Of a stretch of DNA of 34,227 nucleotides, positions 1 through 30,224 are shown piece after piece. Below the pieces are notes generated by a model. It was not told the DNA's origin, did no database searches, and saw nothing but the letters and a program-made list of their open reading frames with translations. Both the position numbers and the translations under genes were made by a program. The stretch's first letter is position 1, and the number at the start of each line of letters is the position of its first letter. The stretch is from a virus. The stretch covers positions 1-34,227 of IMG/VR virus record IMGVR_UViG_3300023181_000061; one strand, written 5' to 3'.

Positions 1-490
1 CAAGTAAAAATTTATTATCGTCTGAAATTTTAATTTCTGACAATAGAGAGTTTTGTATTTGTTTAATTGTATATTCTTGTATTGGTATTATTATAGTCTC
101 ATTGCTTTTACTTATGCTTTGAGTATGCTTTGATACATGCTTAATAGTTGCTTTATCAAGTGCTTTATCAAGTGCTTTGCTAAATATTAGTAGAGCAATT
201 ATATTACTTGAGTATTGGTTTTTACTTTTTTCAAGCATCTTTACGAACCCAAAACTAACTAAATCATTTAATGTTTTTATATAAGTTGTATATGACTTAA
301 TCCCTAAAGCCTCTTTAGCCATAGTAGTAGGTAGTCCAAATTTAGGCTTCCATCCCATTCTATTGCTGTGAGACAAAATAAAAAAATATAGTGCTGAATG
401 ATTAGGGTTTATTAATTCTGGGTTTTCGAAGCTAAAATCAAACCAGTTCCTCATATAATCATAAATAGTATCTTTATCATTTTCCTTCAT
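1..490 (-). CDS. Replication-initiator-like winged-helix protein (C-terminus cut off by window edge)
   Basis: The leftward reading frame starts at ATG 490 and stays open to the window edge, giving 163 visible residues. The N-terminal ~85 residues (NWFDFSFENPEL, ALYFFILSHSNRMGW, FGLPTTMAKEALGIKSYTTY, LNDLVSFGF) read as the winged-helix domain found at the front of replication proteins in many Bacteroidota phages; that family assignment is from memory of the pattern. After residue ~100 the protein becomes lysine/serine-rich and repetitive (KALDKALDKA). The DNA of that part carries an iteron-like array (103-178), the arrangement known from lambda O, where the origin lies within the initiator gene. 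The start overlaps the stop of the upstream HNH gene as ATGA, so translation is probably coupled. A helicase-loader or transcriptional role remains possible without the C-terminus. Confidence 0.7.
   Translation of the reverse strand, partial: MKENDKDTIYDYMRNWFDFSFENPELINPNHSALYFFILSHSNRMGWKPKFGLPTTMAKEALGIKSYTTYIKTLNDLVSFGFVKMLEKSKNQYSSNIIALLIFSKALDKALDKATIKHVSKHTQSISKSNETIIIPIQEYTIKQIQNSLLSEIKISDDNKFLL
103..178. repeat. Seven-copy iteron-like array, probable replication origin
   Basis: The hexamer TGCTTT (one copy is TGCTTA) starts at 103, 115, 126, 138, 149, 161 and 173, so the spacing is 12, 11, 12, 11, 12, 12 bases, about one helical turn. Because the spacing is not a constant multiple of three, the periodicity is a property of the DNA rather than of the encoded protein. 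It lies inside the initiator-like gene and is flanked on the low-coordinate side by a very AT-rich stretch (1-100) that could serve as the unwinding element. The origin assignment is inference. Confidence 0.6.
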
Positions 491-2186: not shown

Positions 2187-3104
2187 TTAAAATTTATCCC
2201 AGTTATTTTGTACCCATTCATCACATTCAGTTACGCGGGTGTTTATTCTTTCAATTACTTCACGGTCGTATTCTAAATCAAAAGATATAATTCTTTTTTC
2301 AATAGGTAGTTCTATAAATCTTGATGTATCATAAGTACCTAAAACGAAGCTGTATATTTTCAAACCCTCTTTTGTGTAAATATGGTTCTTAATAATTTCA
2401 TAAGCTGTTTTTTCAGGCATTTCATCAAGATGAACATTGTTTTTATAACACCATGATTTTAATTCCCCCTCAACAATGTGAAAAGGAGTATCGTTCAAAG
2501 TATAACAAAGCTTAAACTTTTTCTTACCTGTTAAATCCATATATGTATGACCTTGATAAATGTAATCCTTATTTGATATTTCATTTTCAGCAAAAGGGAA
2601 TGTAAAAATAGTATAGCTGCTTTTATTATCAATTAACGTATCATTCACAATAACATCGGGTGTACCGCATTTATAGTCGTCCTCATAGTACTGTTTGTTC
2701 TTAGGTATGAAAACACCAGGATAAAGTACATTTTGAATAACATCGAAACCATCATGTTCTGTAATGTTCCCTTTTTCAGTTTGCTTGCTGCTAAACTCTT
2801 TTTTTCGACCGTACTTATTTTCTATAATCCATTCCTTAAGATAGGTTTTGCATGTTTCAGATAATTCAGTTATATGCTTTATCTTGTCATATTTTTCTAA
2901 ATCCTCTTTAGCCTTAGGTAATGATACTTCACGTATTGCTGTAGCTAACTTTTTTGTTTTGTCTTTGTACTCATCATATCTCTTAGTAAGGTCAACTATC
3001 TTTTGTTTAGAATCAATATATTTTTGGTAATTACTTAAAACTCTTGTTTCAGTCATTATTTTACCGACCATTGATGCCCTGCACTTAAACTTTATCGATG
3101 CCAT
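2187..3104 (-). CDS. YqaJ/lambda-exonuclease-type PD-(D/E)XK nuclease
   Basis: A 305-residue protein whose second half carries a PD-(D/E)XK nuclease core: E116 in a helix (GNITEHDGF), D150 in GTPDVI, D159-N160-K161 as the D-X-K part, and Q184 in YIYQGHTYMDL, the motif IV helix typical of YqaJ-like exonucleases. Residues ~25-95 are a charged, probably coiled-coil extension. Such enzymes resect double-stranded DNA 5' to 3' and hand the single strand to an annealing protein. The recT gene lies immediately upstream and overlaps this start by 20 bases, which strongly supports an exonuclease/annealase pair. The core glutamate is replaced by Asp, an accepted variation. Confidence 0.85.
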   Translation of the reverse strand: MASIKFKCRASMVGKIMTETRVLSNYQKYIDSKQKIVDLTKRYDEYKDKTKKLATAIREVSLPKAKEDLEKYDKIKHITELSETCKTYLKEWIIENKYGRKKEFSSKQTEKGNITEHDGFDVIQNVLYPGVFIPKNKQYYEDDYKCGTPDVIVNDTLIDNKSSYTIFTFPFAENEISNKDYIYQGHTYMDLTGKKKFKLCYTLNDTPFHIVEGELKSWCYKNNVHLDEMPEKTAYEIIKNHIYTKEGLKIYSFVLGTYDTSRFIELPIEKRIISFDLEYDREVIERINTRVTECDEWVQNNWDKF

Positions 3105-4041
3105 TTTTAAGTAGTTTTACTTTTGTTGTTTTTAATAAATCCTTTATTTCTTGGGTTAATTCCATATTGTCGAATTGCAATAGGCTTTCAATATTGTTGC
3201 AGTTTTCAATAAATGATATTATTCTTGCATTTTCTTGCTGTTCAGGAGTGTCAATTTGTAAATAATTAGGTTGGTCATTATCAATATACCTAACCTTTTG
3301 TGCATCATAATCTTCAATTACTGACTGGTCTGTTTGAAGCATTTTAATAATATCAACTGATTTAGGGCCATATTTACCAAGCAATAATTTAAGTACAGTT
3401 TTTTTACTCATACCATCTTTATCATCTGCCCAAACACCAAATCCTTTACCGTAAGTTTTACTATATTTCTTTGCGTGTATCTCTATTTGTTCAATAGGCA
3501 TAAAATGCATTTTTTCAAAGCCATTATCAAGTCTAAAATAACCCACATAGCCAATTATAGGAAGTTTATTACGTTGTGAGTAATCCTGTACCCATTGGAA
3601 AGTAATATCCCCTGTAAGGTGGTCAAAAAATTTAATTTCGCCATCTCTTACATCCATAGCGTTAATCCTGTGATATTCTTTAGTTCTAAGGCAAAGATTA
3701 ATAATACCTTTATAGCCTATCTGAAATTGTGCAACATTACGCCATTGAGTAGGGTTTGTGTTAGGTATTTTTTCATTAAATGGTATAATGTATGCTAAAC
3801 CTAAATTAGGGTCAATAGGCAGTTTTAAAGTAGCTGCTACAGCCGCCGCCATTAATACGCTTTGCGGCTCTGCCTGTCTTAGCTTATCATTGTTATTTGC
3901 ACAGTTTAAAACGCTCATTAAAAAGGCTGGAGAACCATCCCCTAGAATTTGCTTAAAACGTTCCTGTACTTCTTCATCCTTAATCATTAATTTAAGGGGG
4001 CGAGGTTGTTGTACTGAAACTTGATTATTATTATTATCCAT
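3085..4041 (-). CDS. recT: RecT-family single-strand annealing protein
   Basis: A 318-residue RecT-type recombinase that anneals complementary single strands during phage recombination or concatemer formation. Recognisable segments include QSVLMAAAVAATLKLPIDPN (residues ~60-80), FQIGYKGIINLCLRT, YRINAMDVRDGE-like and GYVGYF strands, and the C-terminal WADDKDGMSKKTVLKLLLGKYGP helix region. The frame is open further upstream to 4224, but that part overlaps the upstream gene, has no RecT similarity, and the ATG at 4041 (MDNNNNQ) fits the family N-terminus, so I chose 4041. It pairs with the overlapping exonuclease gene. No SSB gene is visible in the window. Confidence 0.93.
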   Translation of the reverse strand: MDNNNNQVSVQQPRPLKLMIKDEEVQERFKQILGDGSPAFLMSVLNCANNNDKLRQAEPQSVLMAAAVAATLKLPIDPNLGLAYIIPFNEKIPNTNPTQWRNVAQFQIGYKGIINLCLRTKEYHRINAMDVRDGEIKFFDHLTGDITFQWVQDYSQRNKLPIIGYVGYFRLDNGFEKMHFMPIEQIEIHAKKYSKTYGKGFGVWADDKDGMSKKTVLKLLLGKYGPKSVDIIKMLQTDQSVIEDYDAQKVRYIDNDQPNYLQIDTPEQQENARIISFIENCNNIESLLQFDNMELTQEIKDLLKTTKVKLLKNGIDKV

Positions 4042-4066
4042 ATTATTGTTTTCGTTTTTAATTTGA

Positions 4067-4447
4067 TTAATATATTGGATTTTTAGGTTTTGTAATAGAT
4101 TGATAGTGAGTAGCAAACTCTTTTGAGTAAAATTCTTTTTCGTGGTTAATAAACGGAGTCCAAATTGCTTGCTGTGGCATATTGTAAAACCAATATATAT
4201 GACCTTCGGTAAGTACTGTTTCACAGGTTATCTCTACCCAGCCGTTGTTATTTTCGATGCCGGAAAGTGATTTTGGTCTTATACTTTGAACGCTGCTGGT
4301 AAGCTTTAATAAATCACAACGATCATATTTTGATGAAAATTGACCAGGCTTTATTTTTAACCATCCATTATTATATTTCAAATTTTCATTAAAAGGTAGG
4401 TTACATTCTTCGTAAGCATTCTTAATCGCTAATTCCTTTGCTGTCAT
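4067..4447 (-). CDS. Hypothetical protein (126 aa)
   Basis: No family recognised. Two related pieces are visible: NNGWLKI near residue 26 and NNGWVEI near residue 68, each followed by a strand-like segment, which suggests an internal beta-rich repeat. The C-terminus is aromatic-rich (GHIYWFYNMPQQAIWTPF). Its start overlaps the stop of the preceding 62-residue gene as ATGA. The gene sits just upstream of recT in the leftward operon. Confidence 0.75.
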   Translation of the reverse strand: MTAKELAIKNAYEECNLPFNENLKYNNGWLKIKPGQFSSKYDRCDLLKLTSSVQSIRPKSLSGIENNNGWVEITCETVLTEGHIYWFYNMPQQAIWTPFINHEKEFYSKEFATHYQSITKPKNPIY

Positions 4448-6108: not shown

Positions 6109-6312
6109 TTAATAAATTTGATTATCCTCAATTAATTTTATTATATGATCTACACTTTCAGTTACCTTTAAAAAATCATTTAATCCATAAGAAATGCTAC
6201 TGCCTGTTTTAGTAGGTAATATATCGCATATTCTCTTGTAGTTAACATAAACTAAATTACCATTATTATCATCTTGATGTACTGGTATGAATCCTTTTAC
6301 TGCATTTGTCAT
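6109..6312 (-). CDS. First gene of the leftward operon, hypothetical (67 aa)
   Basis: A 67-residue protein (FIPVHQDDNNGNLVYVNYKRICDILP...) with a beta-rich first half and a C-terminal helix (SVDHIIKLIEDNQI). The sequence around VYVNYKRI resembles short phage proteins that carry a 'value at this position' strand followed by an amphipathic helix; no function is known to me. As the first gene after the leftward promoter (6342-6371) it is likely made earliest. Confidence 0.7.
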   Translation of the reverse strand: MTNAVKGFIPVHQDDNNGNLVYVNYKRICDILPTKTGSSISYGLNDFLKVTESVDHIIKLIEDNQIY

Positions 6313-6341
6313 AACTATGTATTTTATCGTTTTTGTTACTG

Positions 6342-6371
6342 CAAATATAAAACAAATAAGTTAATTACAAA
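6342..6371 (-). promoter_or_regulatory. Main leftward promoter
   Basis: On the minus strand, TATATTTG (plus-strand CAAATATA at 6342-6349) matches the Bacteroidota -7 consensus TAnnTTTG. A TTTG (plus-strand CAAA at 6368-6371) lies 18 bases upstream, near the usual 19-21. It points at the gene starting at 6312, giving a leader of about 25 bases. The 19 bases at 6332-6350 recur exactly at 1263-1281. Confidence 0.65.
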
Positions 6372-6378
6372 ACAAAAA

Positions 6379-6428
6379 AGTAAACTTATTTACTAAAATG
6401 TTTGTTTATGTAAATATATTGTTTACAT
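6379..6428. promoter_or_regulatory. Two operator-like palindromes between the divergent promoters
   Basis: AGTAAACTTATTTACT (6379-6394) has 6-bp inverted arms. A second palindrome spans 6408-6428 with arms ATGTAAA and TTTACAT and a 7-base centre. Both share the half-site GTAAA/TTTAC. The second overlaps the rightward -7 box, so a bound dimer would block that promoter. Likely ligands are one of the HTH proteins in this window (4635-4877, 1057-1215 or 10443-10793). This is inference from symmetry and position. Confidence 0.5.
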
Positions 6429-6431
6429 TTG
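6401..6431 (+). promoter_or_regulatory. Main rightward early promoter
   Basis: TTTG at 6401-6404 and TACATTTG at 6424-6431 are separated by exactly 19 bases, a full match to the Bacteroidota primary-sigma consensus (TTTG, 19-21 bases, TAnnTTTG). Transcription should start near 6438, giving a leader of roughly 28 bases before the ATG at 6466. Confidence 0.75.
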
Positions 6432-6465
6432 TACTCAGATAACAACAACATTAAACAATAATATT

Positions 6466-6597
6466 ATGATACATCACTATGAAGACGACAATAAGGTATT
6501 CCTTAATAATTACGAAGGTCAATGTGTAGAATTAGAAGGCACATATTTTTATTATGTGGGAATGGAGGATGGTTTATATAAATATGAGGACTGTTAA
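6466..6597 (+). CDS. Hypothetical acidic mini-protein, first rightward gene (43 aa)
   Basis: ATG 6466 to TAA 6597, 43 residues, strongly acidic and tyrosine-rich (MIHHYEDDNKVFLNNYEGQC... ending GLYKYEDC). It is the first gene behind the rightward promoter and so likely among the earliest expressed. No family is recognised. Small acidic first genes of this kind are a usual place to look for DNA mimics or host-protein inhibitors, but that is only positional inference. Confidence 0.6.
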   Translation: MIHHYEDDNKVFLNNYEGQCVELEGTYFYYVGMEDGLYKYEDC

Positions 6598-6599
6598 AC

Positions 6600-6857
6600 A
6601 TGCAAAACACCACCCCTTTAAACTGGAAGCCTATAAATGACTTTACAGAAACTTATAGCTGCAAAGATTTATGTTTAGCTTTATACCCTTATGAAGTTTA
6701 TTGGGGTAGTAAAATGCAAATGCTAAATTACACAGGTAAAGGAGGCATAAATTATATACCTAACCATAAAGTTGAACACTGGTTTTTGTTTTCATTTAGA
6801 AACCACAACGACTACAGTATAAAAGACATTAAAGTTTTTAAACATTGCTTAAACTAA
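6600..6857 (+). CDS. Hypothetical protein (85 aa)
   Basis: Begins two bases after the previous stop. It is an 85-residue aromatic-rich protein (LNWKPINDFTETYSCKDLCL, later VEHWFLFSFRNHNDYSIKDI). No family is recognised. Confidence 0.65.
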   Translation: MQNTTPLNWKPINDFTETYSCKDLCLALYPYEVYWGSKMQMLNYTGKGGINYIPNHKVEHWFLFSFRNHNDYSIKDIKVFKHCLN

Positions 6858-6862
6858 TAATC

Positions 6863-7027
6863 ATGAACGAACAAGGAAATACATTACAGCACTATATTGA
6901 TGTCTTAAAATGGCTTAAAACAGGCGTTACTCAATCGGTATTAAATGATATAGCAGCAAGATGTTTTGATTTAAATCTTTATACATCGGAATGCATAGAT
7001 AGGGTTAAATTATTCATTGAAATTTAA
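6863..7027 (+). CDS. Hypothetical helical mini-protein (54 aa)
   Basis: I chose ATG 6863 (MNEQGNTLQHYIDVLKWLK) over an upstream ATG at 6845 that would overlap the previous gene and add an unlikely hydrophobic stub. The 54 residues are mostly helical with two cysteines (ARCFDLNLYTSECIDRV). No function is recognised. Confidence 0.6.
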   Translation: MNEQGNTLQHYIDVLKWLKTGVTQSVLNDIAARCFDLNLYTSECIDRVKLFIEI

Positions 7028-27566: not shown

Positions 27567-30224
27567 ATGATTAAACACTATTTCGAGTTTATAACTACAC
27601 AACGCGGATTAATACAAGTAGATGAGCCTATCGGTTTCGATCAGGTAGGCTTTTCTATTAAACAAGACGATGGCAGAAAAGGTCGTGATGTAAGTAGTAG
27701 CGGTAATTCGGAGGCTAAATATAAAATGGTTTTTTATAATCAGCGTTATGGATATGCTTTAAATGAGTTAAAACTTGAATTTACAAGGTTTGGGGATCAG
27801 GCAAATGTAATATACCACCAAGACTTTGGAAGCGGAATAGTCCCTTTTGGTAATATAGATATGCAAACCTTTGCTGAATATAGCAATAGGGTAGAATTTG
27901 TAGTTATCGCGTTAAGTTCAGAAAGTGAATATAAAACAACATTCGATTTACCAACAAACTTATTTAGTCCTACAGACTTAAAAGGTAATCCGATAACACA
28001 ATGTCAGCCTGTAAGGGTTTTTATTCCTGTAAAGCCTATATATGCTAAATCTGTATGGGAAAACACGTCAGAAGCTACAGAAATGTATTTAACAGGTCGT
28101 GGTAACGTAAATCCAGGATTCTTTAACTCTATAAAAAACCTTACTACAAGCGAAATAAAAGCATCCTTAAGCGGCAACCTATACGATACTTCTATAGCCT
28201 TATTAACCACCTATGATAACGATCCAAGAAACTTTAAAATAATATCTGCCTTAGATAACCTACGTAATGTAAAAGCTAAATTTCAACTACATATTAAGTC
28301 GGAAGTTGGAAACATGATACCCGGCTCTTTTAATGTTAAGGGTGTTTTTGGATTAGGAAAGACTACAGATAGTTTCCAAGACTTCGTTAATGCCGTAAGC
28401 CCCGTTAGGTCTACAGTATTTTATGATAGCGGTGATTTAGGAACAGGTTTACCTTTTAGTAATGAATATAACGGTACATTAAATATAGATTTACCTGATA
28501 TGAATCGGGGCGATGTATTGTATTTTGTTTTTTTCCATCAAGGTCAGGATAACAATAATATTATAGAATCTAAAAATACTATCTACACGTCAAAACTAAC
28601 TATTACAGCTAATCAGGTTACTTATAACAGGGTTATTGAAGCTGTAAGGTACATTGATGCTATAAAATACGCCGTTAAATCAGCGTCAGGACTTGAGGTA
28701 TCAGCACCAATGTACGAACAAGGCGGGGAAGATTATAATCAATTCATAACGAACCCCCAATTGATGCGTGGTTTAAATGATAGACCTGTTTATATATCAA
28801 ATAAAGATATTATAGACCACATAAGAGCAGAAAAAAACGGAGACTACGAAGTTACCCCCACACCATCAATATTTATAGGTAAATATAAAGACTTTTATCG
28901 TGATGAATTAATGGGTGTTTATGATAGGTTAGTTCGTGAAGATGACAATATAGAAACAAATACAAGATACTCATTTAATAAGTTCCAAATAGAGTATAAA
29001 AACTATGCAGCACAAAAAGAAAATGAAAATGGGAACACTTTAGATACCGTTCATGGTAATGCTGTATATACAACCCCTAAATTAAGGGTAAATAATAGCC
29101 GTGAAGCTTCTATAAACTTAATTAGAGACGCTATTTTATGGCAACAGTACATTGACAAGTCAAATGATTTAAAATCTTCACAAGCCACTCAGGATGACGA
29201 AAAGATATTTATTGTAGACTGTATTCAAAACAATGGAACTTTATCATTTACTGAAAACTCATTTTTGCAACATGCAGGAAACGGAAATACTTTAACCCTT
29301 AAAAATGATTCTTCTTTTAGCTTTGTAGGTTTAGGTATTGATGTATCAAGCCAGTTTACAATAAACAGCACCCAGAATGCAGGTACTTATTTTGTTCTTG
29401 ATGTAAATCCGCAACAGATGACCATGTTTAGGAACGACGGTGTTACTGTTCAGTCTTATGATGAAGTAAACACTAATTACACTTATAGAATATCAGAAAT
29501 AAATGTACCTTTTGTGGCAAGGACAAATGAAGGTTTTACAATATTCAATAATTTAGACCCACAAGGCGCAATTAATACAAGGTTTACATTAGCAAGGATA
29601 ATGCGTGATAGTTATTCAGAGGAATTAGCAACAAACGTACTTTATTCTAATGGTTTACCTATACGTAATGCATCATACCTTTATAATCCTGATGCAGCTA
29701 CTAAATATTTAGATAATGAAGTAATTGTAGAGGGTGCTAATTATAACCCAACAGGAGCGTTAGTTAATGGAAAATTATTTGATTTAAAGTTAGTCCTTAA
29801 TTACGCTGAATATATGGAACTTGTAAGCAAAATAAGGACTATAAGAGGTTATATAAAAACTAAAGGCTTCAACGGATTGCCTTTAATGGGTTTTATTAAA
29901 AATATAGAGTGGCAACCTGTTAGTAAAGGCATTGACGATATAGAATTGTTTAATGGAGAAGCAGATGTTACTTTAGAAGAAAAATATAGTGAATTTGACC
30001 TCTATATATTCCGTGAAGGTCAGACTATTTTAATAAATGGAGAAACACAGCCAGTAGGAATACAGTATGAAATAGACGAGTACGGATATGTAACATTTTA
30101 TGATGTTGTAGGTATGGAATTAGAAGTTAAAGTGCTTTATGACCGCGTTAAAGTAAACAACTCTCAAAAAGCAAGTACCCCAATTGAATTAGCGGGATGG
30201 TTAAGCCTTATACAATTGGAATAA
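27567..30224 (+). CDS. Large distal tail / baseplate protein (885 aa)
   Basis: An 885-residue protein starting one base after the tape measure stop. The first ~110 residues (MIKHYFEFITTQRGLIQVDE PIGFDQVGF) are the opening I associate with the distal tail protein of Bacteroidota siphophages, which would form a ring at the tail tip. The middle has many beta segments and the C-terminal part has fibre-like beta strands. It probably joins tail tube to the fibres. Promoter-like TATATTTG follows its stop. Confidence 0.75.
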   Translation: MIKHYFEFITTQRGLIQVDEPIGFDQVGFSIKQDDGRKGRDVSSSGNSEAKYKMVFYNQRYGYALNELKLEFTRFGDQANVIYHQDFGSGIVPFGNIDMQTFAEYSNRVEFVVIALSSESEYKTTFDLPTNLFSPTDLKGNPITQCQPVRVFIPVKPIYAKSVWENTSEATEMYLTGRGNVNPGFFNSIKNLTTSEIKASLSGNLYDTSIALLTTYDNDPRNFKIISALDNLRNVKAKFQLHIKSEVGNMIPGSFNVKGVFGLGKTTDSFQDFVNAVSPVRSTVFYDSGDLGTGLPFSNEYNGTLNIDLPDMNRGDVLYFVFFHQGQDNNNIIESKNTIYTSKLTITANQVTYNRVIEAVRYIDAIKYAVKSASGLEVSAPMYEQGGEDYNQFITNPQLMRGLNDRPVYISNKDIIDHIRAEKNGDYEVTPTPSIFIGKYKDFYRDELMGVYDRLVREDDNIETNTRYSFNKFQIEYKNYAAQKENENGNTLDTVHGNAVYTTPKLRVNNSREASINLIRDAILWQQYIDKSNDLKSSQATQDDEKIFIVDCIQNNGTLSFTENSFLQHAGNGNTLTLKNDSSFSFVGLGIDVSSQFTINSTQNAGTYFVLDVNPQQMTMFRNDGVTVQSYDEVNTNYTYRISEINVPFVARTNEGFTIFNNLDPQGAINTRFTLARIMRDSYSEELATNVLYSNGLPIRNASYLYNPDAATKYLDNEVIVEGANYNPTGALVNGKLFDLKLVLNYAEYMELVSKIRTIRGYIKTKGFNGLPLMGFIKNIEWQPVSKGIDDIELFNGEADVTLEEKYSEFDLYIFREGQTILINGETQPVGIQYEIDEYGYVTFYDVVGMELEVKVLYDRVKVNNSQKASTPIELAGWLSLIQLE

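Follow-up and report, generated by a model that had tools for sequence, protein, structure and literature searches.

The DNA analyzed here, referred to as the window, is the whole 34,227-bp IMG/VR record IMGVR_UViG_3300023181_000061, which ends at base 1, and at this end lies the 5' part of a putative phage replication initiator gene. A previous sequence-only reading had reported seven TGCTTT copies inside this gene. On rechecking the plus strand, six copies are exact (starting at 103, 115, 126, 149, 161, and 173) and the one at 138 is TGCTTA, with one mismatch, while the steps of 12, 11, 12, 11, 12, and 12 bp are as that reading gave them. A further correction is needed: the initiator gene, truncated at base 1, is encoded by the minus strand, and in the direction of the gene the sites read AAAGCA at steps of 12, 12, 11, 12, 11, and 12 bp. 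The features of the region are listed below.

2-490, minus strand: initiator gene, 5' part; an open reading frame with 163 amino acids visible, cut by the contig end, its C-domain off the contig
103-178, minus strand: array A, seven sites AAAGCA (TAAGCA at 138-143)
173-178, minus strand: array A copy 1, codon frame AAA GCA
161-166, minus strand: copy 2, codon frame AAA GCA
149-154, minus strand: copy 3, codon frame AAA GCA
138-143, minus strand: copy 4 (TAAGCA), codon frame xxT AAG CA
126-131, minus strand: copy 5, codon frame xxA AAG CA
115-120, minus strand: copy 6, codon frame xAA AGC A
103-108, minus strand: copy 7, codon frame xAA AGC A
82-100, minus strand: divergent version (GAGACTATAATAATACCAA) of a box that reads GATAGTATA[GA]ATAAACAA in relatives
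53-86, minus strand: degenerate array B, with ACCA at 83-86 and ACAA at 77-80, 67-70, 59-62, and 53-56; steps of 6, 10, 8, and 6 bp versus 7 or 8 bp in relatives
1-100, no strand assigned: AT-rich stretch, candidate unwinding element, 78% AT versus a window mean of 67%

The spacing had been taken to keep all copies on one face of the helix, an argument that we rejected on arithmetic: the six steps total 70 bp, an average of 11.67 bp, and the array therefore winds round the helix. With 10.5 bp per turn, each copy is rotated by ~40 degrees and the whole array by ~240 degrees, about two-thirds of a turn. In the rest of the 34 kb, TGCTTT is scattered (56 matches on both strands versus 39.9 expected). 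When the protein was kept and synonymous codons were redrawn from the gene's own usage, AAAGC occurred in the region 2.6 times on average versus 6 times observed (P = 0.003, for this gene alone).

The first relatives found were one in IMG/VR with 70% identity and Polaribacter phage Danklef with 52%, and a profile search with the N-domain returned 211 relatives in viral contigs (80 of which were kept) and 36 in bacterial genomes. The homologues in bacterial genomes are nearly all in Bacteroidota, in agreement with the assignment of the window to a Bacteroidota phage. Alignment of homologues, which the sequence-only reading had proposed as its test, went in its favor: array A lies directly 3' of the conserved N-domain in almost all of them, its hexamers, spacing, and position are kept in nearly all across three codon frames and with variable overlapping residues, and a conserved protein lacking spaced hexamers was not the pattern found. 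Neighboring AAAGC motifs in 77 representatives are separated by 370 steps, of which 325 measure 11 or 12 bp and another 33 measure 23 or 24 bp, corresponding to one skipped copy. The family consensus of the steps (12, 12, 11, 12, 11, and 12 bp) is exactly the series of the window.

Across the homologues, the hexamer is distributed over the codon frames in the ratio 198:132:117; consensus slots 1 to 3 read AAA GCA, slots 4 and 5 xxA AAG CA, and slots 6 and 7 xAA AGC A, a three-frame pattern that arises because two of the steps are 11 bp. For the test of codon bias, slots were defined by alignment position, regardless of whether they contained the motif. Lysine in the frame-2 slots is encoded by AAG in 119 of 128 cases versus 271 of 1,640 elsewhere in the same genes (P = 3e-73), and slot serine by AGC in 110 of 110 versus 131 of 794 (P = 8e-74), P values that overstate independence, the sequences being related, with a direction that is unambiguous; slot alanine is GCA in 203 of 214 cases versus 295 of 638 elsewhere. 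The residue before AAG is varied (I, T, S, V, K, A, Q, and others) and its third base is mostly A, and in the last slots the AA is covered by E, Q, K, or R. Synonymous resampling gave fewer expected sites than were observed, with 72 of the 77 representative homologues individually below 0.05. Because the hexamer occurs in all three codon frames and carries strong synonymous codon bias, these comparisons indicate that the array is conserved as DNA and not as protein, and that the coding sequence of the initiator is constrained at the DNA level.

The initiator genes of L099 and L056 contain runs of identical 12-bp units (AAAGCACAGGGC; AAAGCACAGGTG), apparently recent in-frame expansions of the array. 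One family member (L094) is in a contig binned as a Clostridia metagenome-assembled genome (MAG), which is probably misbinned or phage contamination. Two phage proteins with SKTK repeats (L172 and L229) are encoded by codon-phased 12-bp units and may represent another embedded array.

Three spaced copies occur at a single place in 20 of 20 phage records (29 to 55 kb), and a reversed-pattern control gave 0; in the complete 47-kb genome of Danklef, the only chain is one of nine copies at 29333-29427. When viral contigs were searched with the array A pattern, 80 of 173 matches fell in the family, and the rest were mostly in proteins with Lys/Ala repeats or in unrelated proteins. The same search of 297 genomes matched family initiators only in two genomes that were already known, and the other matches listed were in unrelated genes or short frames. 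A search of a plasmid collection with a single family member found no homologue.

AlphaFold2 predicted the window protein with a mean pLDDT of 79, exceeding 90 over residues from about 10 to 100; confidence is low where the protein is encoded by the array and the AT-rich stretch. Residues from about 9 to 100 form the N-domain, a predicted winged helix (helix-helix-strand-helix-helix-strand-strand). The full-length relative L034 is predicted to have the same N-domain, an unstructured linker at about 100 to 165, and a helical C-domain, and the direct repeats sit inside the coding sequence between the two domains. Searches of Pfam, PDB sequences, and PDB folds yielded no specific relative beyond winged helices; the fold matches were generic MarR-like winged helices, none with an E value below 0.001. 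RepA_N (PF06970) was absent from the 25 Pfam families listed for 45 family members, and the window protein itself had no Pfam match. In PHROG, the truncated window protein has a weak O-like match (E = 0.0018), and 24 of the 45 members match, the matched families including replication initiation O-like, replication initiation protein, DnaD-like helicase loader, replisome organizer, and primosomal protein; the identification of the gene as an initiator thus holds. Several of the strongest PHROG matches mainly cover the region 3' of the array. Pairs of members are on average 69% identical in the N-domain and 13% in the C-domain, and C-domains are swapped between replication-initiator families. 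In several relatives, a DnaC-like loader or a replicative helicase is encoded downstream.

The sister phages Danklef and Freya, which belong to one genus, have nearly identical DNA up to about 28620 and again from about 29520, inside the initiator. Between these points their sequences are unrelated, a part that spans the gene after 28620, the N-domain of the initiator, and both arrays. Freya has a different N-domain and different repeats (AATAGTAGTGAT). In this one pair of phages, the N-domain and its repeats differ as one block, as would be expected of a recognition pair.

On the 3' side of array A in the direction of the gene, the AT-rich stretch that the sequence-only reading had pointed out is real, and 3.5% of 100-bp windows in the record are as AT rich as positions 1 to 100. 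Across the family, the 75 bp after the array average 76% AT versus 68% elsewhere in the gene, and the stretch is poor in G (10.8% versus 17.5%). In relatives, the conserved box lies after array A and is followed by AT-rich DNA; two of its codons are AGT in 70 and ATA in 72 of 74 sequences. Relatives also have a second array, array B, in which ACAA or ACCA recurs at intervals of 7 or 8 bp that do not keep codon phase: 164 of 186 steps are 7 or 8 bp versus about 27 such steps by synonymous resampling, and a slightly different choice of region gave 177 of 212 steps versus 2.6 of 36.8 in shuffles. Steps in codon phase (6, 9, or 12 bp) are rare. Because the order of 7s and 8s differs among members, the rhythm is kept while the units change. 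Freya, with its other N-domain, has AAAC at five 8-bp steps. The degenerate repeats of the window would be the same element as array B of the relatives. No counterpart of array B at a host origin was found in 148 Bacteroidota genomes, where the matches to its pattern resembled simple repeats and intergenic runs and where a reversed control was also frequent.

Short repeats are known from the unwinding elements of Vibrio cholerae ori2 (ATCA), RK2 (GGTT), and Escherichia coli (TTGT/TTATT), and in ori2 and RK2 they are held single-stranded (PMC10316083); Bacillus subtilis DnaD binds the element TnnT (PMC10201434). Array B resembles these in that its motifs are short, tandem, and located in an AT-rich element next to double-strand sites, and its complement, TTGT or TGGT, fits both E. 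coli TTGT and B. subtilis TnnT. It differs from them in that its 7- or 8-bp spacing is conserved inside a coding sequence. Because of the analogy with ori2, RK2, and the binding of DnaD to TnnT, array B is probably a strand-opening and strand-holding element, which leads to a testable prediction about the strand that is held on origin opening. More tentatively, and with the balance somewhat against it, one gene may carry two phased rulers, AAAGCA every 11 or 12 bp read as double-stranded DNA and ACAA/ACCA every 7 or 8 nucleotides read as a single strand in the opening region, the reader of the second being independent of the type of C-domain; the gene would then combine a protein code with two out-of-phase DNA codes.

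Origins inside the initiator gene are of a known kind. In lambda, the origin lies in the middle of the initiator gene, the N-domain of O binds the iterons, an AT-rich region flanks them, and the C-domain contacts the loader (PMC6022878). The proposed comparison with lambda O holds; the array and putative origin are likewise mid-gene with an AT-rich region on one side. The lambda iterons, whose known spacing of 20, 24, and 23 bp was recovered in our control scan, are 18-bp dyads bound by dimers, whereas the present family has single hexamers head to tail at 11 or 12 bp; narrow membership of the lambda O family was therefore rejected. Origins within rep are also described for the lactococcal phages TP901-1 and Tuc2009, and Rep2009 reportedly binds direct repeats that lie in its own gene (PMC8965321). 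Our scan of Tuc2009 rep, which is annotated as containing the origin, found CAACCA at steps of 11, 11, and 11 bp, and the description of the window iterons as unusually short is therefore only partly right. Tuc2009 and the present family share direct repeats at steps of about one turn within the initiator gene, but they differ in N-domain, hexamer, and host, and in Tuc2009 only 11-bp steps and no 7- or 8-bp array were seen. In the RepA_N protein of the staphylococcal plasmid pSK41, a winged-helix N-domain binds Rep boxes in the middle of rep, the segment they encode is a dispensable linker, and the C-domain is host specific (PMC5703833). The family is like pSK41 in its winged-helix N-domain, central sites, and linker-encoding segment; it differs in that pSK41 is a plasmid system with a different protein family and four Rep boxes.

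Similar arrays with other motifs were found in initiators with other N-domains: GAACAGCA at 12, 11, 11, and 11 bp in KLEP17-4, AACAGCA at 12, 11, 11, 22, and 11 bp in MPV1, TTAAGTAA at four steps of 12 bp in BS-TP3, and TGATAC at mostly 12 bp in CRP5. Further phage initiators have 21- to 24-bp arrays or no clear arrays. Recurrence of the 11- to 12-bp rhythm with other motifs suggests a common geometry for one-turn iterons. A DnaA-type origin was rejected for array A, whose motif is AAAGCA and not the TTATNCACA boxes. We found no description of the origin of this family in open-access papers, and as far as the open literature shows, the family, its three-frame hexamer, and array B are undescribed.

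We consider it very likely that array A is the iteron part of a phage replication origin inside the initiator gene, of the lambda-O/Rep2009 type, a reading that draws on DNA-level conservation, the single site per record, the predicted fold, the families matched by the C-domains, and the joint difference of N-domain and array. For the pairing of protein and sites, stoichiometry, opening, and loading, we infer the following course. The winged-helix N-domain would bind the AAAGCA sites head to tail, probably with one protomer per site, to form a protein-DNA spiral with about 11.7 bp per protomer. The strain imposed by this spiral would open the AT-rich DNA that lies 3' of the array, and one of the separated strands may be held there by the box and the ACAA/ACCA repeats. 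The C-domain, which is variable and is attached through the array-encoded linker, would then recruit a helicase loader or the helicase. The N-domain together with its sites resembles a cassette to which different C-domains are joined, an arrangement that would account for a change of loader partner without loss of the origin. For Bacteroidota phages, in which replication has been little studied, the family supplies a large number of candidate origins that can be compared with one another. GC skew was rejected as an origin test: the minimum is 0.6 and 1.0 kb from the array in Danklef and Freya, respectively, but 15 further phages show no relation, and over the 17 phages the switch in cumulative skew at the array is of median rank (0.51), which does not locate the array as the origin.

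The array could instead be an operator, with the protein acting as a transcription factor on its own operon and not in replication. Danklef_43 is annotated as a "transcriptional regulator" and the fold of the N-domain resembles MarR-family regulators, but the array is about 300 bp inside the coding sequence beside an AT-rich element, forms a single cluster per phage record, and is joined to C-domains that match replication families; we regard an operator as quite unlikely. Repeats kept as a landing strip for recombination, allowing phages to exchange initiator C-domains, would account for swaps just downstream of the array, but exchange alone needs neither an 11/12-bp rhythm nor a single orientation, and the joint difference of N-domain and repeats between Danklef and Freya means that the repeats are not shared homology, making this explanation very improbable.

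Direct repeats of 10 to 12 bp are also present in parC and tubC. A partition or centromere-like site placed in the initiator gene would fit head-to-tail repeats at about one helical turn and a winged-helix protein, and some relatives may live as plasmid-like prophages; it is nevertheless extremely unlikely, as no partition motor gene was seen beside the array in the annotated relatives, the relatives include integrase-bearing phages, and the gene that contains the array is an initiator gene close to those for loaders. Finally, the first three copies are codon phased and encode KALD repeats, as they would if a Lys/Ala-rich linker were selected for its amino acids and the DNA regularity were a by-product. 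This we tested and found unsupported: the use of three codon frames, the AAG and AGC bias, the 11-bp steps, and the synonymous-codon null leave a protein-level repeat scarcely credible.

Several Bacteroidota phages have, close to the initiator, genes for small DnaA-like proteins with a helix-turn-helix of the DnaA domain IV type (L323:27667-28113; L247:1-440; L248:137-616; L002 at about 6415-6916); these proteins could possibly be a partner or a decoy for host DnaA. In the window, an HNH endonuclease gene at 487-1011 has a stop codon that overlaps the initiator start codon, and exonuclease-like and RecT genes at 2187-4224 place a recombination module beside the replication gene. At 6300-6600, leftward early genes switch to rightward genes, a likely regulatory region.
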